Assembly: GCA_031292625.1 (NCBI GenBank)
Contig: JARLGU010000032.1
Coordinates: 1-64,000, forward strand
Reading direction: 5' to 3'
Source: Capsulimonadaceae bacterium
Lineage (GTDB): Bacteria; Armatimonadota; Armatimonadia; Armatimonadales; Capsulimonadaceae
DNA length: 64,000 nucleotides
Part shown: positions 3,552-17,428 of the stretch, piece after piece
How the letters are laid out: every line of letters begins with the position of its first letter
Numbering within the stretch: position 1 is the first letter of the stretch
Position numbers and translations under genes: made by a program
Notes under the pieces: generated by a model
The model's database searches: none
The model's input: the letters and a program-made list of their open reading frames with translations, nothing else
Told to the model about the DNA's origin: nothing

Positions 3552-4736
3552 TCAGCGCAATTGAACAGGCGCGGGATCGATCTCTCCCACTCCAACCCAT
3601 TTGCCGGGGTAAACAAGCGACGGTACTGCCGACGGATCTGTTGCAAACGCGGCAACCTCATCGTCAAGACCAGCAACCACGTAAGTTTGCTGCGGCGTGT
3701 TCGGGGTTACTGCCGATACAAGAGACGCGGCGAACGATGTGATCCCATCGCCGCTTTTGAGAGCGCCGTTGACCGTCTGGAGATATGGCAGCGTATCGCA
3801 TAGCGACGTTGCAGGTTCACCGCTTTGCTCGATGGCATCGAAAAAGTCGGTCATGATAGCCATCATGGGTTGGTATGGAAACGCATATTGAACTGTCTCG
3901 CCGCCATCCTGCGTCACGGCGGCGTTCATATTCCAGTCAAACCAAGCGTGTCCGCACGTCCCTCGAAAATACATTCGCGGCCCATATTCCTTGGTGCTTG
4001 CATGCGTCAAAAACAAGCGAACGTTTATCCCTGTTTCGCTCTCGGCTTCTACAAACGCCGTGTCGTAAGACTCGATCGGCCGCGCGCGCTTGAGCGATCC
4101 ACGGACACGCACCGGCGCTCCGGCAATAACCATCGCGGCGTGAACCGCATGTGCACAAGCATTGGTCGCGGGACCATCGAAGACAGGCGCACCACCGACG
4201 GTCATTCTCCCCGACCATGATGTGCGTGCATAGTAGGAATCGTCGCGCGGCCAGCTCGCCGCAGCCCAGATATGCGTGAGATCGCCGATTTTCCCAGACG
4301 CCACGATCTCCTTTATGAACCTGTAAACGGGCGCTGCCTGCATCTGAAAACCGATAGCGCATATTTTTCCACTCGCTCGCCGTGCCGCATCAAGCTGTTC
4401 GTATTCCCCGGTCGTCGCACAGGGCGGTTTCTCCAGATAGACGTGTTTGCCGGCAGTGAGTGAATCGATGGTTTGCCGCGCGTGCAGGTGGATTGGGGTG
4501 GAGATAATCACCGCGTCGATGTCGTTCCGAGCGATCAGATTCCGGTAGTCATCGTAATGCGCAACACTCTCCCAGTCCAGCGCTGCAAGTGCATCGGGAA
4601 AACGAACGGCAGTGGGGTCGGCGATAGCGACGAACCGGCAGCGCCCGGCATGGTGGAAGGTTCGAATAGTCTCCAGATGCGCGTGGCCCATGCCGCCAAT
4701 TCCGATCATCCCGATCCGTAACATACGAGCGTTCAT
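3552..4736 (-). CDS. Gfo/Idh/MocA family NAD(P)-dependent oxidoreductase
   Basis: The 394-residue protein has an N-terminal Rossmann fold (GMIGIGGMGHAH, residues 9-20) and the family motif EKPP at 102-105, whose lysine normally contacts cofactor and substrate. A GFO_IDH_MocA C-terminal sheet follows. Members oxidise or epimerise sugars, inositols or sugar acids with NAD(P); the substrate cannot be read from sequence. The ATG (4736-4734) overlaps the TGA of the upstream remnant frame (4735-4733) as ATGA, with GGAGG-type Shine-Dalgarno sequence (GGAGGTAAGGAG) just before it. It is the last gene of the minus-strand carbohydrate run that starts at 13149. No signal peptide is seen, so it is cytoplasmic and acts on imported sugars. 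Confidence 0.9.
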   Translation of the reverse strand: MNARMLRIGMIGIGGMGHAHLETIRTFHHAGRCRFVAIADPTAVRFPDALAALDWESVAHYDDYRNLIARNDIDAVIISTPIHLHARQTIDSLTAGKHVYLEKPPCATTGEYEQLDAARRASGKICAIGFQMQAAPVYRFIKEIVASGKIGDLTHIWAAASWPRDDSYYARTSWSGRMTVGGAPVFDGPATNACAHAVHAAMVIAGAPVRVRGSLKRARPIESYDTAFVEAESETGINVRLFLTHASTKEYGPRMYFRGTCGHAWFDWNMNAAVTQDGGETVQYAFPYQPMMAIMTDFFDAIEQSGEPATSLCDTLPYLQTVNGALKSGDGITSFAASLVSAVTPNTPQQTYVVAGLDDEVAAFATDPSAVPSLVYPGKWVGVGEIDPAPVQLR

Positions 4737-5077
4737 AGTTTCTCCTTACCTCCAAACGACAATGGAAATGCGCCGAACGACAACGGAAATGTCGAGTTCG
4801 GATCGAGCAGTTCGTTCAGAATCGGGTAATCGCGATCCGACAGGCCGTCGATACGCACGCGCGGATTATCGGATACGATGCCGTTCACCGAAACAAAATG
4901 TGCGCTGCTCGACAAGAGCTTGATTCCATCTGACTCCGCGTGCGTGGCGTCCGCGGCGAAAAAGGCCTCGACTCGCCCGGCGTTACGAGCGACGGCTGCG
5001 CAGATCGCTTCGGCGCGAAGACCACCTCCCTCGCATTCACCTGGGGCCGGTAACCGCGGCTCTGATATTCGCAGCTG
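4733..5077 (-). pseudogene. C-terminal remnant of a heparinase-like protein
   Basis: The minus-strand frame open from 5077 to the TGA at 4735-4733 has no standard ATG start, yet it encodes recognisable sequence: AVARNAGRVEAFFAADATHA, then ESDGIKLLSSS. This lines up with TRVAGRTEAFFVAGATVAEF / DGETIWSSS in the neighbouring heparinase paralogue (14400-15971) and more weakly with the full-length one. It overlaps the 3' end of the GH gene (5037) and ends in an ATGA overlap with the next start. The last 40 bases contain a small tandem duplication (FPLSFGAFPLSFGG). I read it as the tail of a third heparinase gene that was replaced by the GH gene. The retained frame may still serve translational coupling. 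Confidence 0.6.
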
Positions 5078-7154
5078 CTAAATTCGCCTTACGCATGTGG
5101 TCGAACAAGGTCCACCGTGGCTGATCTTGATCGGTATAAATTCCCCACGCAGCGTTCTCGCTTTCTATGAGAAAGTTGGGACCATGTGCGCCTCCCTGGC
5201 CCGTGATTGGTTGGTCGTTGTATTTGAACCATCCGCCGCCCACAATGTACGCATTCGAGGCGGCGGAGCGTATCCACCTCTCATAAGCCTGTCCTTCCTG
5301 CTTCTCGGTATGAATTGGGTTGTTGCGGGAAAAGCAAAATCCACGTGTACCATCGTAATCAAGCGTATAGCCAAACTCACCGCAAAACGCGGGCTTGCCG
5401 GTCGAGGCCAGCAATTTGGCGAAGTCGCTGTCGGCGATCCCATTCGCGCAATACTCGTACCGGTCATAGCCGATCACATCCACGTGCCGCAGCATCAGCG
5501 CCCAACTAGATTCAATGTTCGGCAGGTCTGCGGGAAACCAGAACCCGAAATACAGGTGGTTTGCGTCGATTTTCTTTACCGCATCGTAAAGGAACCCGTA
5601 ATACACATCCGCAAAGTATTGGCGCAAAGCTTCCACATCCGCTTGCGGAGGCTGCAACTTCTGGCTGGCGTAGATATCCGCTGGGCTGGATGCCGCTATA
5701 TGCCAGCTTGAAGAGAGCTTCGCCATGTTTCCTTCGTAAATCGACGCCAACGCGTGATCGACAAGCGCCCTTTTTGCCGCCGTGCCGCCATCGCGGCTGA
5801 GAATATCCGCAATCTCTTCGGGCTTAATGATTTCATCCACCTCGTTTCCTATCGACCAGCCCACCACATTGGGATCGGAAAGTTGCGGAGTAATTTGACT
5901 GGAAAGTGACTGAGAGATCTTCTGGCCGACTGCAACGTCAAAAATGTCACTATGGCGTAAGAGTTTAGGGGCATCGATATGAAGCACTGGGAAGCTCGCT
6001 ATATCGTTGAGTTGACCCCACTTAGCTACTCCGGAAAAGCCGAGCGTACGCAAGCGCTTCGCGCTAAGGGCAGTTTCCTTTGCGCGCCAGTCGCCGGAAA
6101 ATTTGCGTATCAAATTTGCCGCGCGAAAGGAAAAACGTGAAACGCCGTCCGACTGGCCCCATGCGTCGTGAAAGCGACCGTCCTTGTCGGGAAGCCATGA
6201 GTATAGACTCTCGCGTCCCGTAACTGGCGTGGACGGCCAGAAGACGGCAGGAATCGAACAAATCCCCGTATAGAAGCACGGATTGCCGATAGGCGTAATT
6301 AACCACCAGATGCCATTGCGCTTTTCGACGCGGAAGTATCCCGTCGCTTTGGATGTCCATCCCAAATCTGTTCGACCGCCATACTTATCGAAGTTCTTCG
6401 GCACGCCAATTCGATCCAGGCGCGCGCTCTCCTTGGCCGCCTCCGCGTCAAGGTCGGAATCGGTGATTACCTTGCCAGGGAATTTCGCGGCAATCATCTG
6501 CCCATATTGATCGATAAGCGGCCACGCCGACTTTATTGATGATGTCGTCACAATATGCAGCCACGCCGTAATGCAGACGCTTCCCGTCGACAAGTCCAGG
6601 CGAGGAGTGGCGAGGCGTTGCAGCGACTCACGATCGATCTGTTGAAGAGCGAACGGCAGCGACGCTGGGGGACGAAGGTCTCTATCGACGGTTTGTCCAC
6701 CACTCTGTACGATCACGCGGTCTATGATTATCTGATAGTCGGCGTCACCCCTCGCCCACCAGTTGTCGATACTCAAATCAAGCGAGCAAGGCGCAAGAAC
6801 GGCCTCGGTTTGCAATGCGTTCCCGCCGTCCACGACCAGAGACTCGTGGCCGCCTCCTATCGTTCCAACGACCTTGTATTCGTGGTTGAAAACAAATGGA
6901 CCGGAAGCACATAGGGTGCTCCAGTGCGTGCCGTCGGCCGCGAGCAGCAGTAGTTTGAGTGTGCTGAGCGAGAGCGTTCCATAAGTTGAGTCGTTTGCAA
7001 AGCTGAGGTAATAGCCCTGCTTGCGGCTATAATCGGACTGGCCGGCGATCAACGTGTGACTGCTTTCAGCGAGAGATGCCACGGTACTCATTACAGCAAG
7101 GGCTGCGATGCAGCCAAACCGCGATAGGCTCCGCCGATTCATGATTATATTCAT
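5037..7154 (-). CDS. Secreted clan GH-A glycoside hydrolase, agarase (GH50)-like
   Basis: The 705-residue protein has an N-terminal signal sequence (residues 1-31), a beta-sandwich or CBM-like region to about 240, and a TIM-barrel domain introduced by YFRVEKRNGIWWLITPIGNP (273-292), typical of beta-agarase-like enzymes. The likely acid/base is Glu438 in GWSIGNEVDE and the likely nucleophile is Glu593 in AFCGEFGYT. Clan GH-A retaining enzymes cleave beta-glycosides; agarose, porphyran or another galactan is possible, but the substrate is not determined. The ATG overlaps the stop of the upstream heparinase gene (TCAT at 7151-7154), with GGGAGG four bases before the start, so the two are translationally coupled. 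GH50, GH86 or an unassigned relative are the alternatives. Confidence 0.8.
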   Translation of the reverse strand: MNIIMNRRSLSRFGCIAALAVMSTVASLAESSHTLIAGQSDYSRKQGYYLSFANDSTYGTLSLSTLKLLLLAADGTHWSTLCASGPFVFNHEYKVVGTIGGGHESLVVDGGNALQTEAVLAPCSLDLSIDNWWARGDADYQIIIDRVIVQSGGQTVDRDLRPPASLPFALQQIDRESLQRLATPRLDLSTGSVCITAWLHIVTTSSIKSAWPLIDQYGQMIAAKFPGKVITDSDLDAEAAKESARLDRIGVPKNFDKYGGRTDLGWTSKATGYFRVEKRNGIWWLITPIGNPCFYTGICSIPAVFWPSTPVTGRESLYSWLPDKDGRFHDAWGQSDGVSRFSFRAANLIRKFSGDWRAKETALSAKRLRTLGFSGVAKWGQLNDIASFPVLHIDAPKLLRHSDIFDVAVGQKISQSLSSQITPQLSDPNVVGWSIGNEVDEIIKPEEIADILSRDGGTAAKRALVDHALASIYEGNMAKLSSSWHIAASSPADIYASQKLQPPQADVEALRQYFADVYYGFLYDAVKKIDANHLYFGFWFPADLPNIESSWALMLRHVDVIGYDRYEYCANGIADSDFAKLLASTGKPAFCGEFGYTLDYDGTRGFCFSRNNPIHTEKQEGQAYERWIRSAASNAYIVGGGWFKYNDQPITGQGGAHGPNFLIESENAAWGIYTDQDQPRWTLFDHMRKANLAAANIRAAVTGPR

Positions 7155-9757
7155 AGGACCTCCCAGGACCAGTGTCCGGCCGCGGCTTCGAATGTGAGCA
7201 TCTTTCCTGCGCCTTCATATGTGAACGGTGTCTCCCGTTCGTTGACCTTAACGGACGACACACGCCCATGAACACGTACGCCAAGCGTCGCCGGATCGGG
7301 AAGCGAAAGCTCTCCCTTTATCCCGCGCTGCGACCAGGTTGCGGCAAGCGTCGCGGGCGCCGTGCTGCAAATGAGCAATTCGCCGTCTCGCGCGAGCCTT
7401 GTGCCGTCCGCCATGAAGACCGCCGACTTGGAAACGGCCGCGCACTGTGCGTGTGCTTCGATTCCTTCCGCTCTGCATTCCATGCCTTGAGCCGCAAATA
7501 GCACGATATCGTCCCCCATGCGGCAGCCAAGCGTCTCTTCCTTGCCAACGCGAACGGGAAGGTCTGGAGCAGGTGCCGACGCAGTGTGGGGAATTAGCGC
7601 CGTGAGAATTCGATGCGTCCGCGACGGCGAGAGCGATTTGCCGCGCGTGCGCATGGCCTCGTCATGCTCGGGGCCGCGACAACCCTGATAGATGACGAAG
7701 TCCTCCGGTTCGTTCGACCACGAAAGTTCGGGATACAGTGTCGTCACGGTCATGGCGGATTGGCCGAGTGTAACCCGATGACGCCCCGCGTCAAGCGCCT
7801 CCAACGGGCGCGCTGTAATCAGTAGCCATTCGATTTCGTGCGGATTTTGCGCGGCAATTTCATCATAGACGACGAACCATCGCTCGCCAAATGACACGAT
7901 CCAGCGGGAATAGCGGTCGAGGTCGGCGATGCCGTCGTACAGCTCGTGCGCCTCTCCACACGCCGCCGAGACGGCGTCCGACAAGACGGCGTGCGTTACT
8001 TGGCCGATCCTGTCTGGACGAATGCCGGGCCACGCCTCCCCGCTGCCCACCTGGCCTTGCCCGTCTATCAGCAGCGTGTTATGGTTCTTCGTCTGCTTAT
8101 CAATTGCATAGCCGTCATCCATTGCAAGGGGCTGACCGGCGCTAAAGAGCAAGAATGAGTTCGCGTCGGGGTGCGTGTGGCCGGCGTCCGCGCGCTCTCC
8201 GGCCCGTGCGCGAGCGACGTTGTAGTGGCTTCCGAGCGGCGAGCAGCGAAATGCGAGTACGTTCGCGTCCGAATCCCATCGGTCCCGCATGACCACGGTC
8301 CCCGTATCGCGGTAATGCGCGCTTTTGGGAAGAGCGTCGTCCGGGTTAGTTGATTCAAGATCGGGATCGCGCCAGATTGTATATTGCGGAAAGATCGTAT
8401 CCGGACGAAATCGATCGATCATGCCCTGGATGACAGGATCGCGGTATCGTCGGGCGAGGTAGGCAAGCGCGTCCCAATTCATCTGCGATCGCATCAGCGC
8501 ATCGGCAACATTCAGGTGAACGTTCGATGTCGTAATATTGAGCGTCCAGCGCCAATACGCCGTCGCTCGGAACCAGGGATGATCGCCCAACAGGTCAATG
8601 CCGCAGCAACGTTGCAATACGTCCACGGCGCGAAATAGCCGAGGCATCGAATAGTCCCAGTAATGGGGGCCCTCATAGAAATCACCCTGATCGTTTCGAG
8701 GAAACGTTGCGATGCATTTTCGGAGGAGGTGGGTGGCCCAGGCGATCCAGTTCGCCGCCTCAGGCTCGCCAGCAAGTGCAATGCCTGCCAAGAGCAGCCC
8801 CTGCATGCTGATATAGGTGTGATTTTGATCGAACCTGAGGGACCATGGCGCATCGCCTGCAAGAGACAGCTCGAACATACGCCGAGCTTGCAGCCGGATC
8901 TTCTCCGTCGCAAGATTATGGATCTCAGGAGACAAGTCGCTTCCAACCCAGTCAATCGCAACAGCCAGACCATACAGCCCGTGCGCGGCTTGAAGATCGC
9001 AATCCTCTTCGCGTCCAGCGCCCCAATGCTCGGGCTCGCAGATCACGCAAAGCATTTTCTCGATGGTCGCCAGCATAGCGGCTTCTGGTTCGAGCAGGTA
9101 AGTTAGAAGATAGAGAGACAAACACTCGGCATCCCCGGAAATAGGAGGAGCATCGACCGTCCCCATCGGCAACATTGGACGATACCAGCCATTAGCGCGG
9201 TAAAATTCACGATCCTTCCTGAGCCTTGTCAGTGAATGTATGTCAAGGAACAGGCACGGGCGCTGATCCATAGCGGAGGGCAAAAGCGAGACGGCTTGCA
9301 CCGAGTGGTCCGCAAAGATGGATGCCGCTTCTTCTGGCGAGACTCCCCGCATTTCTCTAGCTGATGGCCCTGACCAAACACGCCAAAATGCCATCGCGCC
9401 GTCTATAGGCGTGATCGTGACGTAATGGCGGTTGCCGTCACAGGGAACGTCAATGCGAAGGCGGCTCTGGTACGGCATCCGTCGGACTGACTGTCGGCCA
9501 AGATCGACGCCGTCAAGCGCAAGCTCGACGCCGGCGCCTTCGTCGAGGCCGCAGAGCGTGATCGCGACTTCGCAATTTGCGCGCGCATCGACCTGGACAT
9601 CGACACGTAAGGACTGCCCGGAATCCAACAGGCGAGCCGGCAGGGAATCGCCATGTGCGCAGACGGTCGTCGGCGCCGAATCCGCGCTGAGCCAGTGCGG
9701 CAGTTCGTCCTCGAATTGGGCGCTGTAGAGAGTGTTCGTTTGAATTGATGTGCTCAT
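7151..9757 (-). CDS. Heparinase II/III-like polysaccharide lyase (full length)
   Basis: The 868-residue protein has three parts. Residues 1-150 form an N-terminal beta domain. Residues 170-500 form an all-alpha toroid, with FDQNHTYISMQGLLLAG at 309-325 and DFYEGPHYWDYS at 359-370. The Hepar_II_III beta-sandwich starts near GHTHPDANSFLLF (526-538) and includes KNHNTLLIDGQGQVGSGEAW. Such lyases cleave uronic-acid-containing chains by beta-elimination; conserved His, Asn and Tyr residues in those motifs are the expected active site. No signal peptide is visible, so it may act on imported oligosaccharides. It is coupled to the GH gene at 7154 and follows the gene at 12187 after a 66-bp gap that contains a terminator-like hairpin. 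Confidence 0.88.
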   Translation of the reverse strand: MSTSIQTNTLYSAQFEDELPHWLSADSAPTTVCAHGDSLPARLLDSGQSLRVDVQVDARANCEVAITLCGLDEGAGVELALDGVDLGRQSVRRMPYQSRLRIDVPCDGNRHYVTITPIDGAMAFWRVWSGPSAREMRGVSPEEAASIFADHSVQAVSLLPSAMDQRPCLFLDIHSLTRLRKDREFYRANGWYRPMLPMGTVDAPPISGDAECLSLYLLTYLLEPEAAMLATIEKMLCVICEPEHWGAGREEDCDLQAAHGLYGLAVAIDWVGSDLSPEIHNLATEKIRLQARRMFELSLAGDAPWSLRFDQNHTYISMQGLLLAGIALAGEPEAANWIAWATHLLRKCIATFPRNDQGDFYEGPHYWDYSMPRLFRAVDVLQRCCGIDLLGDHPWFRATAYWRWTLNITTSNVHLNVADALMRSQMNWDALAYLARRYRDPVIQGMIDRFRPDTIFPQYTIWRDPDLESTNPDDALPKSAHYRDTGTVVMRDRWDSDANVLAFRCSPLGSHYNVARARAGERADAGHTHPDANSFLLFSAGQPLAMDDGYAIDKQTKNHNTLLIDGQGQVGSGEAWPGIRPDRIGQVTHAVLSDAVSAACGEAHELYDGIADLDRYSRWIVSFGERWFVVYDEIAAQNPHEIEWLLITARPLEALDAGRHRVTLGQSAMTVTTLYPELSWSNEPEDFVIYQGCRGPEHDEAMRTRGKSLSPSRTHRILTALIPHTASAPAPDLPVRVGKEETLGCRMGDDIVLFAAQGMECRAEGIEAHAQCAAVSKSAVFMADGTRLARDGELLICSTAPATLAATWSQRGIKGELSLPDPATLGVRVHGRVSSVKVNERETPFTYEGAGKMLTFEAAAGHWSWEVL

Positions 9758-9823: not shown

Positions 9824-12187
9824 TCATTTCGCCAAATGGAGGGCGGATGATCTGGCTCCAAAAATGTACACGGGATACTCGCACGCCTGGACGGTCAGCA
9901 TATCAGTCGGCGTATTGACCGTGCGCTCGTTACCCATGAAATCGACGAGCCGCGTCGCTTTCGAGCAGACGGGTATGCGCACGGCGGCCGAGGCTCCATG
10001 CGGCTTCCAGACCGCGACCACCGTCTGCCCCGCTCGGTCGAACGCGTAGGCATACACATCCGGCGGTAGCGCTGAAAGAGGTCCCAGAGTGGTTGTGCCA
10101 TCGAGAACCCGGGTCATCGCGGCGCAGGCCATGAATGCCGGTTTAGGCGCGACGCTTATGGCGCCCCAGTTCGGATCCGGCATGGTCAGGTTAAACGTCA
10201 GCCCGAATCCCGGCTCGCTAATATAGTCGGACGAGTAAAAAAAGAATGTCGTTTTCACGCCTTCGCCCAGCAGAATAATGTGTCCGCGTACAAGACATGC
10301 GGCGATCTGTCTCAGCGCCTCGGCATCGGCGAAGGCATAGCTCCTCTCATAACCGATGCCCCATTCCGTTACGATAATCGGCGCGCCCGGCTTCAAGTAT
10401 TTCCGGACGAGCGACCGCAGTTCGCGCGTGTACTCAATCTGGCGGTAGTCCTCTGGCGCCACGATTTCTCCTGGCGCCATTTGCTTGCAACGAGGGTTCT
10501 GGTCATCCGGGTAGTATGCGTGTGTCGCTACGCCGTCCAGCGCTTTGCCCAGTCCCATCGGCAGCATAGTTCGGAGCCAGTTGAGCGTTCTTGGAATGAC
10601 GCCGGCGCCGGGAGCGAGGACCATCGCGGATGGATCGCCGCGGTGAAGTCCGGCCGATGCGTGCTGACACATCGCCACATACTCTTGCGGCGTTCCCTGC
10701 CAATGCCAATCGGGTTCCCACGACAGTTGATACCAGTTGTGGACCATCCACGGGCAAGAGTCGTTCATAATCGACGCGTACCACTTGCCAACGCGAAAAT
10801 TCAAGTCTTCGAATTGATCCAGGTTACTAGGCGGATAAGACTGAACGTCAAGCTTCGCCGCGGTTTCCTTGGGTACCGATTGCGGTACCGCCATCGCCCA
10901 GTGCGGAATTCCTTCCGTATAATTCAGCCGCGCCATCCGATCCTGGCACGCATAGCCAACCTCAGGCCAGGCCGGGGCATGATCTGCGGGCTGGAAGGCG
11001 CCGGCGTGGTCGGGCTCGAGATCGGACCACCTTGCGCCGAGGCACACCCAATGGACGCCAATCAGCCTGTACAGCGGATCGAATGGATCGCCGACGCCGG
11101 GCTTGCCTGAAACGGTAAAATTGTTGCCGTTCATGCCAAATCGCGAATCGTCGGCATGCTTCAGCGGAATAGCGGCGATCGATGGCATGACGCCGAAAGA
11201 AACGAGGTTGTCCGGGCGGCTTCCCGCCCCCGTGAATACAAGGCCCTTGCGGCGCATCTTTCCCGAGAGACTGTAGTAACCGCTTTTCAGGGAACCGAGC
11301 TCAAGTGAGGAGGTCCACTTACCCTTGGTGAAATTCATACCGACTGAACCCTTTGTCATGGTTGCGCCGGTGTAATCGCGCACGACCCAATCGAGCGTGT
11401 CAGGGGCGTTGTCCGCGGACAGGGCTTCAAGATGCAAGCGGACCCGCGATCCCGCAGATGCGATATTGAGCCGCGGAGCCCCGTCAAGCCATGCATCCAA
11501 CCTATCGGTCGATACGGCGGGCGCTTCGGCGACCACGATCTTCTCGATCGAGCAGGCTCCCGGACCTCCCTGCTCGTTTCGTGCGAAGACAACCGAGGAA
11601 AGTGGTCCCGCGCTGGCGTCGACGAAATTGCCTTTTGAGAGGACGGTGTAGGTCTGGTCGCCGATTGTCAGTCGCAAATCGAATCGATGCCGGACTTGAT
11701 CGAGACGGATATCGACATCGTACCATTCAGTCCGGCTTTGGGGAATGATCGTCCGCATATTGTCGGTGCCGAACGCCACGCCCCATTGCCCGTCGCCATC
11801 GTGGTAGACGTGCGCGATTCGGCGTCCAGACGCATCGAGCAGGGTCACATAGAGCTTTTGGGTCGAGCGGGTTCCCTCATAGAGGGTCGGAGCAAATCCG
11901 GCGCCGAAGCGAACGTCCAGATGGTCGATCCCCGCCGCGCCGTTGACAGGAACCTTTGCCGAACCGCGCGGGTACGCGAGCGAGAGAACTCTCCCTCGGC
12001 CGGAAACGTCCTCGATCGACGCGTCAAGGCATGAACTTAGCCCGCCCTGATTTCCGACGATCGGCCCGATCGGGTATCCGTCGAAGCTCTGTGTTAAGAT
12101 CGAACTGGCGAAGCAAATCGTTGCCGCGGCTAACACGCCGCTCATGAGGCTGCAACGCAACGCGCTGCGGAAAATTGATATTTTCAT
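9824..12187 (-). CDS. Secreted clan GH-A glycoside hydrolase with N-terminal beta-sandwich modules
   Basis: The 787-residue protein starts at the ATG at 12187 (MKISIFRSALRC), which has GAAGGA five bases upstream; the frame is open further upstream but without a signal peptide. Residues 1-27 form the signal peptide. Residues 35-220 resemble a concanavalin-like carbohydrate-binding domain, and residues 225-335 a second beta domain. A TIM barrel occupies about 345-700. The likely acid/base is Glu491 in WYQLSWEPDW and the nucleophile Glu608 in PIIVTEWGIG, as in GH39/GH5-type enzymes. The C-terminal 80 residues look like a small beta domain. It starts 35 bp after the pseudopilin stop and forms one unit with it. 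Exact family and substrate are not assignable here. Confidence 0.8.
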   Translation of the reverse strand: MKISIFRSALRCSLMSGVLAAATICFASSILTQSFDGYPIGPIVGNQGGLSSCLDASIEDVSGRGRVLSLAYPRGSAKVPVNGAAGIDHLDVRFGAGFAPTLYEGTRSTQKLYVTLLDASGRRIAHVYHDGDGQWGVAFGTDNMRTIIPQSRTEWYDVDIRLDQVRHRFDLRLTIGDQTYTVLSKGNFVDASAGPLSSVVFARNEQGGPGACSIEKIVVAEAPAVSTDRLDAWLDGAPRLNIASAGSRVRLHLEALSADNAPDTLDWVVRDYTGATMTKGSVGMNFTKGKWTSSLELGSLKSGYYSLSGKMRRKGLVFTGAGSRPDNLVSFGVMPSIAAIPLKHADDSRFGMNGNNFTVSGKPGVGDPFDPLYRLIGVHWVCLGARWSDLEPDHAGAFQPADHAPAWPEVGYACQDRMARLNYTEGIPHWAMAVPQSVPKETAAKLDVQSYPPSNLDQFEDLNFRVGKWYASIMNDSCPWMVHNWYQLSWEPDWHWQGTPQEYVAMCQHASAGLHRGDPSAMVLAPGAGVIPRTLNWLRTMLPMGLGKALDGVATHAYYPDDQNPRCKQMAPGEIVAPEDYRQIEYTRELRSLVRKYLKPGAPIIVTEWGIGYERSYAFADAEALRQIAACLVRGHIILLGEGVKTTFFFYSSDYISEPGFGLTFNLTMPDPNWGAISVAPKPAFMACAAMTRVLDGTTTLGPLSALPPDVYAYAFDRAGQTVVAVWKPHGASAAVRIPVCSKATRLVDFMGNERTVNTPTDMLTVQACEYPVYIFGARSSALHLAK

Positions 12188-12222
12188 CGATGTCCTTCGT
12201 GAGAGAGTTGACTCGGATTGCA

Positions 12223-13149
12223 TTAGTCGTTGTCGTCCAGCGTCCACGGACCGCAAGGGCTCGCCGCGTTGGCATTGCACCAATAAGCCGTGTTCCAGCC
12301 GTTCAACGTGTGTCCCACCAGATGGCTCGTGGCGCCAAAAGTCTGCTCTGGCTTTAGCCACTTTACATGCCCGTCGCAGTAGAGGTAGTCCCATCCGCCA
12401 TTGTGGCGCGGCGCTTCAAGGTCGCCATAGACCGAGCAGGAGCCGCTTAATCCGTTCCCCGATGCCTTATTGCCTGCGCAGTCTTGCGTCGCATTCGTCC
12501 CGCTGGCGCTAATACCGCCGGTGGGCTCAAGGGAGCTAAATGGTCCCAAGCAGACAAAGTCGTTACTGGCGCCGAGCATATTGTTAACGTTGGGCCATTC
12601 GACCAGCATGAACGTGGTCGCCGGCGAAGGAATCTCGGAGGACTGACGGCCAGGGGAGAGATATCCACCGGTGGAGAGACTTTGGTAGCACGGCAGTCCT
12701 GAGCGGCATCCATGCGCGAAGCCGCCATCGTACTGATCGCCAGCCTCCGCATATGATCTCAGGGGCCCGTTCTCTGATTGGGTCGCATTGTTGTAGCGGT
12801 TGATCTGATCGTCCGGACAAGTATAGAACGGTGATGCCGGCACGTTGCCGCCTGTAATGAATGTCGCTTTTAGCCCGACGTACGGGCTGACTTCCGTGTC
12901 CCAACCCGAGTAGGGAGCTCCGCCATATATCGTCCACGGATACGTTTCATCGTAGTCCTGCGCATACTGCGTGAACGCAATTCCAAGCTGCTTGAGGTTG
13001 CTCTGACACGTCGTCTGCCTTGCCTTCTCACGTGCGGTTGCGAATACCGGAAATAATATTGCTGCGAGTATCGCAATTATAGCGATGACTATGAGCAATT
13101 CTATGAGAGTAAATGCTTGGTCCCGTGTGGCAATTGCGGATCTTGACAT
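12223..13149 (-). CDS. DUF1559 prepilin-like protein (pseudopilin), locus 1
   Basis: The 308-residue protein carries a type IV prepilin signal: a short basic leader, cleavage expected after Ala12 (usually Gly at this place), then [20 protein letters not shown]. The Armatimonadota-type segment [19 protein letters not shown] follows. Near the C-terminus [17 protein letters not shown] gives the H-X9-DG signature of DUF1559 proteins (Pfam SBP_bac_10). Such proteins are thought to be processed by prepilin peptidase and assembled by type II secretion or type IV pilus machinery; the exact role is unknown. The Shine-Dalgarno GGAGGA lies six bases before the ATG. It is the first gene of the run that continues with the secreted hydrolase at 12187. 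Confidence 0.93.
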
Positions 13150-13320: not shown

Positions 13321-14415
13321 TCAAGCAAAGCTAATCTCGTTGCGAGGTTCGACGCGCATGCGCTCTGCCGGGTCCTCGCACGCGTCCCTGCCATATCCCG
13401 ACGTATCGACCGTTTGTCCCGTGGCGATCGACTCGAATATTGCATGCTCGACCTGCAGGACGTACCGCGCCTGGGATATCGAGATTTCGGCCGGCCGGTC
13501 GTTGCAAATCGCATCGGCAAGATCCTCCCATACACGAAAATGCCCCGTATAGCCATTGGGGCCCCGGACGTCCTTGAACGCCGCCCAGGGCTCGCTAGAC
13601 CAGTAATCCGGCCCTTGAAACACGGTTGAAAAATCCGGGGATTCGAGGCTTGTGCTCAAATGACATTCTTTGAATCGATTGGCGAGATAGACGCATCGAT
13701 CCCGCCCGAACATCTGGCATGAGAATTTGCCCATCAGGGCATTGTACGCCTTGCCGTGTTGAACATAACTGGCTTGCGATCCGTCATCGAACGACATCGT
13801 CGCCACGAAGCTGTCAACCGGCAAATGCGGGTCGAGATCGTAAGCGCGTCCGCCAACCGCATAAACGGCGACGAGGCGCGCCTTGTGCAAAACATGAAGA
13901 ATCAGGTCCAATATATGAGGGGCCTGCTCTGAAATGGCGTCCGAACACTGAGCAACGGTGATCCACGGGTTTGGCAGCATCCGCGCGGCGCGCTCCACGG
14001 CGGGGGCCATTCGAAAAGCAAAGCCTACCGAACAACACACTCCAGCCTCGAGAACAGCGTGCTCCGCGGCAATTGCATCCTCAACGTTGCGCGCAATTGG
14101 CTTTTCGACAAAGATATTTTTTCCGGCCTTCGCGGCCGCGATAACGATTTCGGGATGCATGCGTTCGCCGGTCTGGATCAAAACGCCATCGAGATCACGA
14201 TCTGATATGAGCGTTGTCCAGTCAGCTGTGGCGTAGCGTCCGCCGTATTTGGCCAGAAAAGACTCGGCGCGCTCGATGCAGATATCGGCGTAGGCTGCGA
14301 TTTCAATGCCGGCCGCACTGGCGTTCATTATGTTCACTGGCGCGATGCCTCCGCATCCGATACAACCGAACCGAAGCCGCTTCGAGCGCCCATTTCCGTT
14401 TATAGAATTTGCCAA
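13321..14415 (-). CDS. Gfo/Idh/MocA family oxidoreductase
   Basis: The 364-residue protein has the Rossmann motif FGCIGCGGIAPVN (residues 16-28) and the family motif VEKPIA at 103-108. The start is a TTG whose coding region overlaps the end of the heparinase-like gene by 16 bases; GGAGGGAG lies about ten bases before it. That makes the two genes translationally coupled. The downstream end abuts a LacI-type remnant in the same frame. It is presumably an NAD(P)-dependent sugar or sugar-acid dehydrogenase of the cytoplasm. The sequence between residues 170 and 300 differs clearly from the other family members in this window, so a different substrate is likely. Confidence 0.88.
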   Translation of the reverse strand: MANSINGNGRSKRLRFGCIGCGGIAPVNIMNASAAGIEIAAYADICIERAESFLAKYGGRYATADWTTLISDRDLDGVLIQTGERMHPEIVIAAAKAGKNIFVEKPIARNVEDAIAAEHAVLEAGVCCSVGFAFRMAPAVERAARMLPNPWITVAQCSDAISEQAPHILDLILHVLHKARLVAVYAVGGRAYDLDPHLPVDSFVATMSFDDGSQASYVQHGKAYNALMGKFSCQMFGRDRCVYLANRFKECHLSTSLESPDFSTVFQGPDYWSSEPWAAFKDVRGPNGYTGHFRVWEDLADAICNDRPAEISISQARYVLQVEHAIFESIATGQTVDTSGYGRDACEDPAERMRVEPRNEISFA

Positions 14416-15971
14416 CGCGTATCTCCCTCCTCAACATCAAAGCCAACCATTTTTCTTCGAACATCGTAATCGAACGCCACTCGCTGTCCGTTCAAACTGA
14501 CCGCTTCAACTTGCTTCCACGCGCGTATCTGAACATGTGTCGCGGCGAGAACCGACAGATCTCCACTGACCCCCAATTCGTCCCAGGTCGCAGCAATGGT
14601 TGCCGGCTCCGAACTCGACCAGATCGTCTCGCCATCAAACTCGGCAACAGTCGCGCCGGCAACGAAAAACGCCTCGGTTCTCCCGGCGACGCGCGTCATC
14701 GCCGCACCGCCGCCATCCGTGCGAACTGCGCCGGCGCAACACGGAGCGTCTGGCGGCGAGAACAGGACGATATCCTCCCGCTCCCCAGTTCGAAGGCTGC
14801 AACCGAGAACGGAATCGCCGGAAATGGCAGTCGGCACAACAGGATCAATGCCAGCCGAGCTAGGAAGAAGAGCGGCCAAAATACGTTGCTGCGATGCGGC
14901 GGCAGAGGGACGCGCCCGGTTGCGCACGACATGCTCTTGCTCTTTTCCCTTATATCCAGGCCGCAAATTGAAATTGGCCGGCTCAGTGCTCCAAGACATG
15001 TTCGGATGCATAAAGGCGACTGTGAGCGCCGAATCTCCGAATGTAGCTTTCAGCCGGTTCGTCTCGGTCGCGGGAGGCTCTCCGGTGATGAGCAGCCATT
15101 CCAAACTGCGCGGGCTGCCGGCAATCACTTCGTCGTATATGACAAACCAGCGCTCCCCGAATGATACGACCCAACGCGCGCATCGCTCAAGGTCCATGAT
15201 GCTATCGTAAAGCTCATGGGCCTCGCCGCGCGCGGCGGAAAGACCGATCGATAGGACTGAATGCGTAATCGCGGCGGTTTTATCGGTTCGAACCTCGGGC
15301 CATGCCTCGCCACTGCCGACCTGGCTTTGTCCGTCAACGAGCAGCGTGCTATGGTTCCTGGTTTGCTTATCGAGAGGGTAACCGTCATCCATAACCAGTG
15401 GATCTCCGGCCCTGAAGAGAAGAAAGGAATTCGCATCCGGATGCGTGTGCGCGCCGTCGGCTCGGCTTCCAGGTCTCGGGTTCAGGACGTGAGGCAAACT
15501 GGGAACCTGCTGCACCCCGTGATCGGCGAAGATTACCGCGATTTCATTCGTTGGCAGCAGATTCGCGTCCTCGGGCGCACAACCCGCGCCGAAGCGCCAG
15601 AACGCAACCGCGCACGGTTCCGCAGTCAGCTCAAGCGTGTGAGGTTCGCCATCTGATGGGAGGGCAACGTGTATTCGCGTGTGGTAAGGCGCTTTGCGGA
15701 CGTATTTACGGCCAAAATCTTTGCCGTCCAGCGTGATGCTGACAACGCCGGATTCGTCAAGTGCGCAAGCCGCAGCCGATATAGCATAACGGCCGTCAGA
15801 ACACGCTGGAACACGCATCTTGATCGACGCTCCGCTCTCAAGCAACCTGGCATGGAGAGGTTCGCCAAACTCGTGGACGGTCGTATGTCTCGTGACTGCG
15901 GTAAGCCACGGTGGTTGCTGCTCCCCACTCCAAATCATACAAGGGTTGCCTTCAAGATCAATAGGGTTCAT
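14400..15971 (-). CDS. Heparinase-like protein lacking the catalytic alpha-toroid
   Basis: The 523-residue product is a paralogue of the lyase at 7151-9757 but lacks about 350 residues. N-terminal residues 1-165 align with residues 10-165 of the full protein. Then ...HVLNPRPGSRADGAHTHPD joins directly to the Hepar_II_III sandwich (full-length residues about 520 onward). The reading frame is intact across the junction. The helical toroid with NHTYISMQG, which forms most of the active site in this family, is gone, so lyase activity is unlikely; carbohydrate binding is possible. The ATG at 15971 has GGAG six bases upstream and is preferred to the GTG at 16007. It lies between the GntR-LacI repressor and an oxidoreductase. 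Confidence 0.8.
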   Translation of the reverse strand: MNPIDLEGNPCMIWSGEQQPPWLTAVTRHTTVHEFGEPLHARLLESGASIKMRVPACSDGRYAISAAACALDESGVVSITLDGKDFGRKYVRKAPYHTRIHVALPSDGEPHTLELTAEPCAVAFWRFGAGCAPEDANLLPTNEIAVIFADHGVQQVPSLPHVLNPRPGSRADGAHTHPDANSFLLFRAGDPLVMDDGYPLDKQTRNHSTLLVDGQSQVGSGEAWPEVRTDKTAAITHSVLSIGLSAARGEAHELYDSIMDLERCARWVVSFGERWFVIYDEVIAGSPRSLEWLLITGEPPATETNRLKATFGDSALTVAFMHPNMSWSTEPANFNLRPGYKGKEQEHVVRNRARPSAAASQQRILAALLPSSAGIDPVVPTAISGDSVLGCSLRTGEREDIVLFSPPDAPCCAGAVRTDGGGAAMTRVAGRTEAFFVAGATVAEFDGETIWSSSEPATIAATWDELGVSGDLSVLAATHVQIRAWKQVEAVSLNGQRVAFDYDVRRKMVGFDVEEGDTRWQIL

Positions 15972-16050: not shown

Positions 16051-17340
16051 CTATAAGCGTGCCACATGGACGCCGATCCCGGAACCTGCGTCAAACCGGG
16101 CGCTTGTCGTTTGCCGGATGACAAGATGGCAGTTTAAACGAACGTTCGCGTTGGTGACGTTCCCGCCGAGCGCTTGAATCGCTAGTCTGGCCGCCTCGCG
16201 GCCCATCGCGCCGATCGGCCGGCGCACACTTGTCAATCCGAGCATACGGGAATCGATTGCATCGTCAAATCCGCCGATCGCGAAATCCTTTCCCGGCCGA
16301 AACCCGCGCTCGTCGGCGGCGGCAATGACTCCGTACGCCGTATAGTCGTTCGCGGCGATAATCGCCGAGTATTGGCCGTCCGCGTATCCGATCAGGTTGT
16401 CATCAAAAGCGGCGAGCGCCGCGTCATGCCCCGCTTGCTGTGTTCTCCGAGTATGCGCTTCGCGCAACTCTCCGTCATTCCTGGCGGGATACTCGAGCTG
16501 GCTTGGATACAGCCGGATTTCGGCACGTGGACCGGCCGCGTGCTGCACGGCCGCCCGAGCCGCATCCACGCGCTGATCGACCCAGGGAGCGCCATAGGAT
16601 GCGATAAATAGGATTCGTCTGTGACCTCTGGCTAGCAAATGCTCCGCCATCTGATAACCCGATCCCCGTATGTCGCACGTAACCTGGCTGATCGGTCTGT
16701 CAAGAGGGTGACTCGATACGTAAATCAAAGGGCGTGGCGTCGTGAGCGACGCGGCGATCGCTTGGTTCCGAATGTCTTCGGCGTCCGATAAGTTGACGAG
16801 GACGATTGCGTCGGCGCCCGCCGCCAGCAAATCGTCGATGCCCGCCGCGACATACGATATTTTGCTTCGATGGCGCCAAGCGTTCTCGAAAAGCGTACTC
16901 CCGCCCGTCTCCGCGACCGCGCGTTCGAGCGCCTGAACGAGCGCCGGAGAACCGAAGTCGAAGGCCTCCGATACCGTCGCTTTGCTGTCGTCGAGCGGCG
17001 CAATGATTCCGACCTTGGCGTCACCGGTTGCCAGATTGACTTGCGGCGACGCCGTGTACTGCGCTTTGCTGTCCACTTTTCTGGATGGTACTCTCGTGCC
17101 GCGCGAGCTATCCGCGTCGAGTGTTCCATCCTCAATAAGAAGGCTAATCGCATGCTGAAGGGTTCGCAGGTGGACCGAGTATTCGCTCGCCAAACTTCGC
17201 CGGCTTGGAATGTATGCGCCTGCTTCCCAGAAACCGCTCTCAATACGTGCTCTGATGTCTTGCGCGATCCGCTCGTAAACGGGAATTGCCGCGACTCGAG
17301 ATCGATTACCGGCGGACGCTTGTTTGGTCGTTGTTGTCAT
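16051..17340 (-). CDS. GntR-LacI chimeric transcriptional repressor 1
   Basis: The 429-residue protein combines an N-terminal GntR winged helix (residues 20-85; VYERIAQDIRARIESGFW, IPSRRSLASEYSVHLRTLQ) with a LacI/GalR-type sugar-sensing domain (about 105-420; DAIVLVNLS, GFDDAIDSRMLGLTSVRRPI). This architecture resembles AraR-type repressors, which leave DNA when a sugar binds. Its promoter (17400-17428) overlaps palindromic and direct-repeat sequence, so autoregulation is likely. The downstream heparinase-like gene follows after 79 bp and may be co-transcribed. The likely inducer is a sugar released by the neighbouring lyases and hydrolases, but it cannot be named. Confidence 0.92.
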   Translation of the reverse strand: MTTTTKQASAGNRSRVAAIPVYERIAQDIRARIESGFWEAGAYIPSRRSLASEYSVHLRTLQHAISLLIEDGTLDADSSRGTRVPSRKVDSKAQYTASPQVNLATGDAKVGIIAPLDDSKATVSEAFDFGSPALVQALERAVAETGGSTLFENAWRHRSKISYVAAGIDDLLAAGADAIVLVNLSDAEDIRNQAIAASLTTPRPLIYVSSHPLDRPISQVTCDIRGSGYQMAEHLLARGHRRILFIASYGAPWVDQRVDAARAAVQHAAGPRAEIRLYPSQLEYPARNDGELREAHTRRTQQAGHDAALAAFDDNLIGYADGQYSAIIAANDYTAYGVIAAADERGFRPGKDFAIGGFDDAIDSRMLGLTSVRRPIGAMGREAARLAIQALGGNVTNANVRLNCHLVIRQTTSARFDAGSGIGVHVARL

Positions 17341-17376
17341 GGCTCGTTATGGCTCAGGTACGGAAGCGCACAGATC

Positions 17377-17428
17377 GTACAGTGCGCACTAGATAGTACA
17401 GTGTAGCATCGCGATGGGATCTTGTCAA
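17377..17428 (-). promoter_or_regulatory. Promoter and candidate operator of GntR-LacI repressor 1
   Basis: On the minus strand TTGACA (17428-17423) and TACACT (17405-17400) are separated by 17 bp. Overlapping the -10 box and the expected start point, CACTGTAC occurs twice as a direct repeat (17403-17396 and 17384-17377). The perfect palindrome AGTGCGCACT lies at 17381-17390. The arrangement fits binding by the repressor itself. Confidence 0.7.

Follow-up and report, generated by a model that had tools for sequence, protein, structure and literature searches.

A heparinase II/III-family paralogue without its toroid in a Capsulimonadaceae genome: evidence leaning towards a recent in-frame deletion

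In the 64,000-nucleotide stretch of Capsulimonadaceae DNA analysed here (the window), two genes on the minus strand encode proteins of the heparinase II/III family that resemble each other at both ends, and one of them lacks the central part of the other while its reading frame stays open. This raises the question of whether the shorter gene is a lyase copy caught soon after the loss of its catalytic domain or a protein that selection has kept for another use. An earlier note on this DNA had set both readings side by side, proposing that the deletion is recent or, alternatively, that selection maintains a binding or decoy protein; the results described below lean towards the former, and make a decoy acting outside the cell unlikely.

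The short gene and its full-length paralogue

The features relevant to the comparison of both genes are the following:

14400 to 15971, minus strand: short paralogue, 523 amino acids, without toroid; N-terminal domain (residues 1–167) and C-terminal sandwich minus its first strands (168–523)
7151 to 9757, minus strand: full-length paralogue, 868 amino acids, with N-terminal domain, toroid and sandwich (PF07940)
15460 to 15480, minus strand: junction ...LNPRP/GSRADGAH..., the point at which about 352 full-length residues are missing
8201 to 9256, minus strand: part of the full-length gene (residues 168–519) without counterpart in the short gene; holds H313 and Y366
15435 to 15449, minus strand: HTHPD motif (short residues 175–179), with the sole retained catalytic-type histidine, H175

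The short open reading frame starts with an ATG at position 15971, with GGAG just before it, and runs for 523 codons to its stop. In a BLASTP comparison with the 868-residue protein, residues 17–167 of the short protein aligned with residues 17–167 (38% over 151 residues, E 2e-29) and residues 161–523 with residues 513–868 (46% over 365, E 9e-104), whereas full-length residues 168 to about 512–519 had no counterpart, with about 352 central residues gone. One in-frame junction, which reads LNPRP/GSRADGAHTHPD in the short protein, accounts for the whole central gap between the two aligned ends. This is what the earlier note had described, namely two alignable ends, about 350 missing residues (168–519), a junction at RP/GSRADGAHTHPD and a frame open for 523 codons, and both the alignment of the ends and the reading of the sequence bear it out. 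By chance alone, one in three internal deletions would leave the frame intact.

The C-terminal heparinase II/III sandwich was present in both proteins, with PF07940 scores of 41.2 bits in the short and 54.8 bits in the full-length protein (cut-off 24). In the full-length protein, however, the match started at profile position 4 (residue 477), as against position 31 (residue 167) in its short paralogue, and therefore the beginning of the sandwich was lost as well and the cut is not domain-precise. Similarly, a family-specific sandwich profile, built with the full-length but not the short protein among its sequences, started at position 2 in the former and at position 36 in the latter. Besides the toroid, the loss thus includes the first 40 or so residues of the sandwich, so that the claim of a precise loss of the toroid held with regard to the single in-frame junction and failed with regard to the domain boundary. 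A late profile start is by itself no proof of loss, since two further lyase genes of the same genome also match late, one (C48) from position 21 in a 691-codon frame and the other (C46) from position 29 in a 639-codon frame. PF07940 matched at 9 places in this genome, among which the open frame of the short gene is the shortest (548 codons versus 639–890).

The alpha/alpha toroid was absent from the short protein according to both BLASTP and a family toroid profile. This profile was made from at most ten aligned proteins, the full-length one included, and is therefore not independent of the nearest relatives; independent of it, phmmer matched the full-length protein to Atu3025 (3a0o) over residues 259–649, which places a toroid there. 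When residues 168–519 of the full-length protein were searched against the same genome, the only matches, apart from the full-length gene, were three other long lyase genes: C55, C48 and, with a weak match, C58. A toroid that had been relocated or is encoded by a separate gene was consequently rejected, as these residues matched only inside long lyase genes.

Lyases composed of toroid and sandwich (Hepar_II_III) make up families PL12, 15, 17, 21, 35 and 39. The name heparinase used in the earlier note is valid as a family label only, the solved relatives nearest to the full-length protein being the PL15 oligoalginate lyase Atu3025 (PDB 3A0O, 3AFL; E 4.8e-14 to 3a0o) and the heparinase II/III-like 6lja (E 7.3e-10); on this basis we regard the full-length paralogue as PL15-like. 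Atu3025 was also the best solved match of the short protein (E 5.6e-4), and NCBIfam had no family for either protein.

In the alignment to Atu3025, His311, Tyr365 and His531 correspond to H313, Y366 and H527 of the full-length protein, which thus has all three, whereas the short protein keeps only the counterpart of His531 (H175, equivalent to H527). H313 and Y366, which represent the toroid's catalytic His and Tyr, were lost with the deletion, in agreement with the earlier statement that most of the active site is gone. His311 and Tyr365 of Atu3025 are discussed as proposed catalytic residues in passages of PMC11921355, which also report for a relative, VBAly15A, that the Tyr is required and the His not fully so. 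Furthermore, replacement of His337, Tyr390 or His555 by Ala nearly abolished the activity of the PL15_2 exolytic heparinase BIexoHep (PDB 6LJL, 6LJA), according to the part of PMC7904915 that deals with this enzyme and gives its architecture as an N-terminal sheet, a central barrel and a sandwich. The full-length paralogue has a similar length, the same three-part order and, as aligned via Atu3025, the same His/Tyr/His set; in the short protein, by contrast, the entire barrel and the first part of the sandwich are missing. With one of three catalytic residues retained, the short protein should be devoid of lyase activity by the known mechanism. AlphaFold2 models of both proteins, based on two-sequence alignments, had mean pLDDT values of 44.8 and 38.2, which are too poor to judge folding.

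Relatives and the ancestral state

Searches with the short protein gave matches in 27 of 101 genomes, and those with the full-length protein (E up to 1e-20) in 41 of 291 genomes, with an identity of about 34% for the best-scoring relatives. Among the matches listed in both searches, none came from the same family or order apart from those in the genome itself. Before the tree was built and conservation was counted, we removed matches with a sandwich E-value above 1e-20, stretches shorter than 150 residues, repeated entries for one stretch and the loci of the window itself. In the resulting tree of 43 sandwich domains (those of the short and full-length proteins and of 41 relatives from the same phylum), the two window proteins grouped as sisters, with a support of 0.992 and in 200 out of 200 bootstraps. 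The toroid was found in the same frame in 39 of the 41 relatives (partial in L013, at a contig start) and in a neighbouring frame in the other two (L079 and L080). As all 41 carry it, the toroid is ancestral and its loss derived, and an insertion in the relatives instead of a deletion here, which the earlier note had raised against its own reading, can be dismissed as far as the relatives found are concerned.

No orthologue sharing the junction turned up, either in the protein searches of genomes or in peptide-pattern scans of genome contigs. These scans, with six and two peptides on genome contigs and six on viral contigs, yielded no relative, although with so few patterns distant relatives would escape. 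Seven relatives with short open frames (L075–L081) were also inspected for toroid loss. The toroid lay in an overlapping neighbouring frame in L079 and L080, as judged by the profile, and in frame in L081; by eye, a toroid-like sequence was seen in an upstream overlapping frame in L077 and L078, and in an upstream frame beside a run of N in L075, while the open frame of L076 reached the contig end. Thus, there was no clean in-frame loss of the toroid among the PF07940 matches listed and fetched. In the literature we found no paper on a toroid-less member of this lyase family, which is a weak negative. As a side observation, the lyase genes L077, L078, L079 and L080 seem to be frameshift-split between toroid and sandwich, either as draft errors or as real pseudogenes.

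Neighbourhood and a third copy

The following further features lie around the short gene or elsewhere in the cluster:

13321 to 14415, minus strand: Gfo/Idh/MocA-type oxidoreductase, TTG start, 16-base overlap with the end of the short gene
16051 to 17340, minus strand: GntR-type regulator with LacI-like sensor domain, on the same strand as the short gene and 79 bases upstream of it
4901 to 5050, minus strand: third-copy remnant of about 49 residues that lacks a start codon and shares 49% identity with residues 406–454 of the short protein

The short gene is still linked to the downstream oxidoreductase, as had been noted before: the TTG of the latter, at position 14415, lies inside the end of the short gene and is preceded by the ribosome-binding site GGAGGGAG. 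The full-length paralogue, which has its toroid, differs in that it is followed by the gene at 5037–7154, with no oxidoreductase directly after it. Together with the open reading frame at 9824–12394, also on the minus strand, this gene flanks the full-length lyase; neither has a Pfam or NCBIfam match, and both look glycoside hydrolase-like by eye.

Before the regulator there is, on the minus strand, a sigma-70-like site (10/12) at 17428–17400 and an imperfect 19-base repeat in two copies at 17366–17403, whose motif occurs nowhere else in the window and which may be the operator of the GntR/LacI-like regulator. Promoter-like sites in this region numbered 9, a value not above that of shuffled sequence (6.7, sd 3.4). 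Neither the short nor the full-length protein has a hydrophobic N-terminal segment, in contrast to the exoheparinases treated in the relevant part of PMC7904915, which carry signal peptides. Both proteins therefore probably reside in the cytoplasm, and a decoy outside the cell is accordingly unlikely.

The third-copy remnant was detected with E-values of 1.1e-6 in the window search and 5.6e-5 in the genome search. It sits between the gene at 5037–7154 and a Gfo/Idh/MocA-type oxidoreductase reading frame (3552–4736), upstream of the latter, which is still open. With the short gene and this remnant as the two cases, gene copies in the cluster appear to have been broken repeatedly.

Age of the loss and competing explanations

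Synonymous divergence between both paralogues was saturated (dS of about 2.4–2.5, with a dN of 0.65 in the N-terminal and 0.47 in the C-terminal part), which indicates that the duplication is old; given this saturation, and as no orthologue was found, the dN/dS of the paralogues is silent on the time after the deletion. The deletion date is bounded only under the assumption of no selection, in which case around 0.5 nonsense hits per 1% divergence would be expected in the short gene, where no stop is present. An open frame then becomes improbable (5% level) beyond about 6% neutral divergence, or about 1.4% with frame-breaking indels counted at an assumed one per ten substitutions.

Both flanks of the junction stay coding, and the codon usage of the short gene is still coding-like, although lower than that of the full-length gene, which itself belongs to the reference set. 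Of 30 sandwich positions with at least 80% conservation among the 41 relatives, the short protein retains 27 and the full-length protein 28; at positions conserved in at least 95%, these values are 8 and 10 out of 10. In particular, N560 (41/41 relatives) and G568 (95%), in full-length numbering, are both S in the short protein. The branch of the short protein was 2.2–2.3-fold longer than that of the full-length one (0.48 versus 0.22 with FastTree, 0.43 versus 0.19 with IQ-TREE), a direction recovered in 171 of 200 bootstraps with an interval that includes equality, so that the difference is not significant. This profile fits an enzyme for most of its life that recently lost its toroid, with a hint of relaxed constraint.

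In view of the ancestral toroid, the cut into the sandwich, a junction shared by no relative found and the third-copy scrap, we favour, as fairly probable, the explanation that one copy of a multi-copy lyase recently underwent a deletion and is now catalytically dead and in early decay. The short gene would have arisen by an old duplication of a PL15-like lyase with three domains and a probably cytoplasmic location, and would have encoded a full-length enzyme through most of its history. A single in-frame deletion of about 352 internal codons would then have removed the toroid with the Bronsted His and the Tyr, along with the strands that open the sandwich, leaving a product incapable of the beta-elimination typical of the family and probably not folded like a lyase. 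The frame would still be open mainly because the deletion is recent, and translation into the overlapping oxidoreductase gene may help. Against recent decay, the absence of stops and frameshifts, the good ribosome-binding site and the intact-looking order of regulator, short gene and oxidoreductase fit a gene in use, and the longer branch might mean that the gene has been changing under selection for more time than a recent deletion would leave.

One alternative is a toroid-less protein kept by selection as a cytoplasmic, non-catalytic oligosaccharide binder or sensor, in which the N-terminal domain and the sandwich present part of the old groove. Such a protein is possible, with the open frame and the conserved residues (H175 among the 27) as its only positive support, and we consider it unlikely. 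Residues of the N-terminal sheet and sandwich of BIexoHep (Asp70, Ser554, His555, Arg579, Arg648, Lys755 and Arg757) join in substrate binding, but 8 of the 15 substrate contacts, including two of the three catalytic residues, lie in the barrel (both in the structural part of PMC7904915). The neighbouring regulator with its LacI-like sensor domain and the longer branch would also be in keeping with a binder, whereas the removed start of the sandwich and the change of both near-fixed residues to S are not, and there was no second example among the relatives examined (PF07940 matches listed). More specifically, one could propose that of the lyase just the two beta domains flanking the toroid remain and now serve, together with the adjacent LacI-like regulator, as a non-catalytic sensor of oligosaccharides in the cytoplasm; in our view this is improbable.

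Two further explanations were weighed. That the real gene is full-length and about 1 kb was dropped by the assembler seems distinctly unlikely: the join is in frame with coding sequence on both flanks, no other contig holds a second toroid fragment of this type, and no long repeat was seen by eye around the junction or at either corresponding site in the intact paralogue. The genome is, however, a draft of 65 contigs, and the seemingly frameshift-split copies of four relatives, and one by a run of N, suggest that draft errors may occur in such genes. Alternatively, the remaining frame could lack a protein function and owe its preservation to a role as translated leader, supplying the oxidoreductase gene with ribosomes, so that an in-frame deletion was tolerated and a frameshift would not be. 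The overlap on the same strand and the recurrence of the order lyase sequence to oxidoreductase at 4901–5050 and 3552–4736 agree with this quite improbable reading, but the oxidoreductase has a strong ribosome-binding site of its own, and the third-copy scrap has no start codon, yet the frame after it is open.

If the product were folded and kept, it would represent a lyase turned into a binding protein by one internal deletion, of which there was no case among the relatives examined. Recent deletion would be, most likely, an ordinary event with little meaning beyond annotation: on account of its PF07940 match, automatic annotation would probably name the short gene a heparinase II/III lyase despite the missing catalytic domain.
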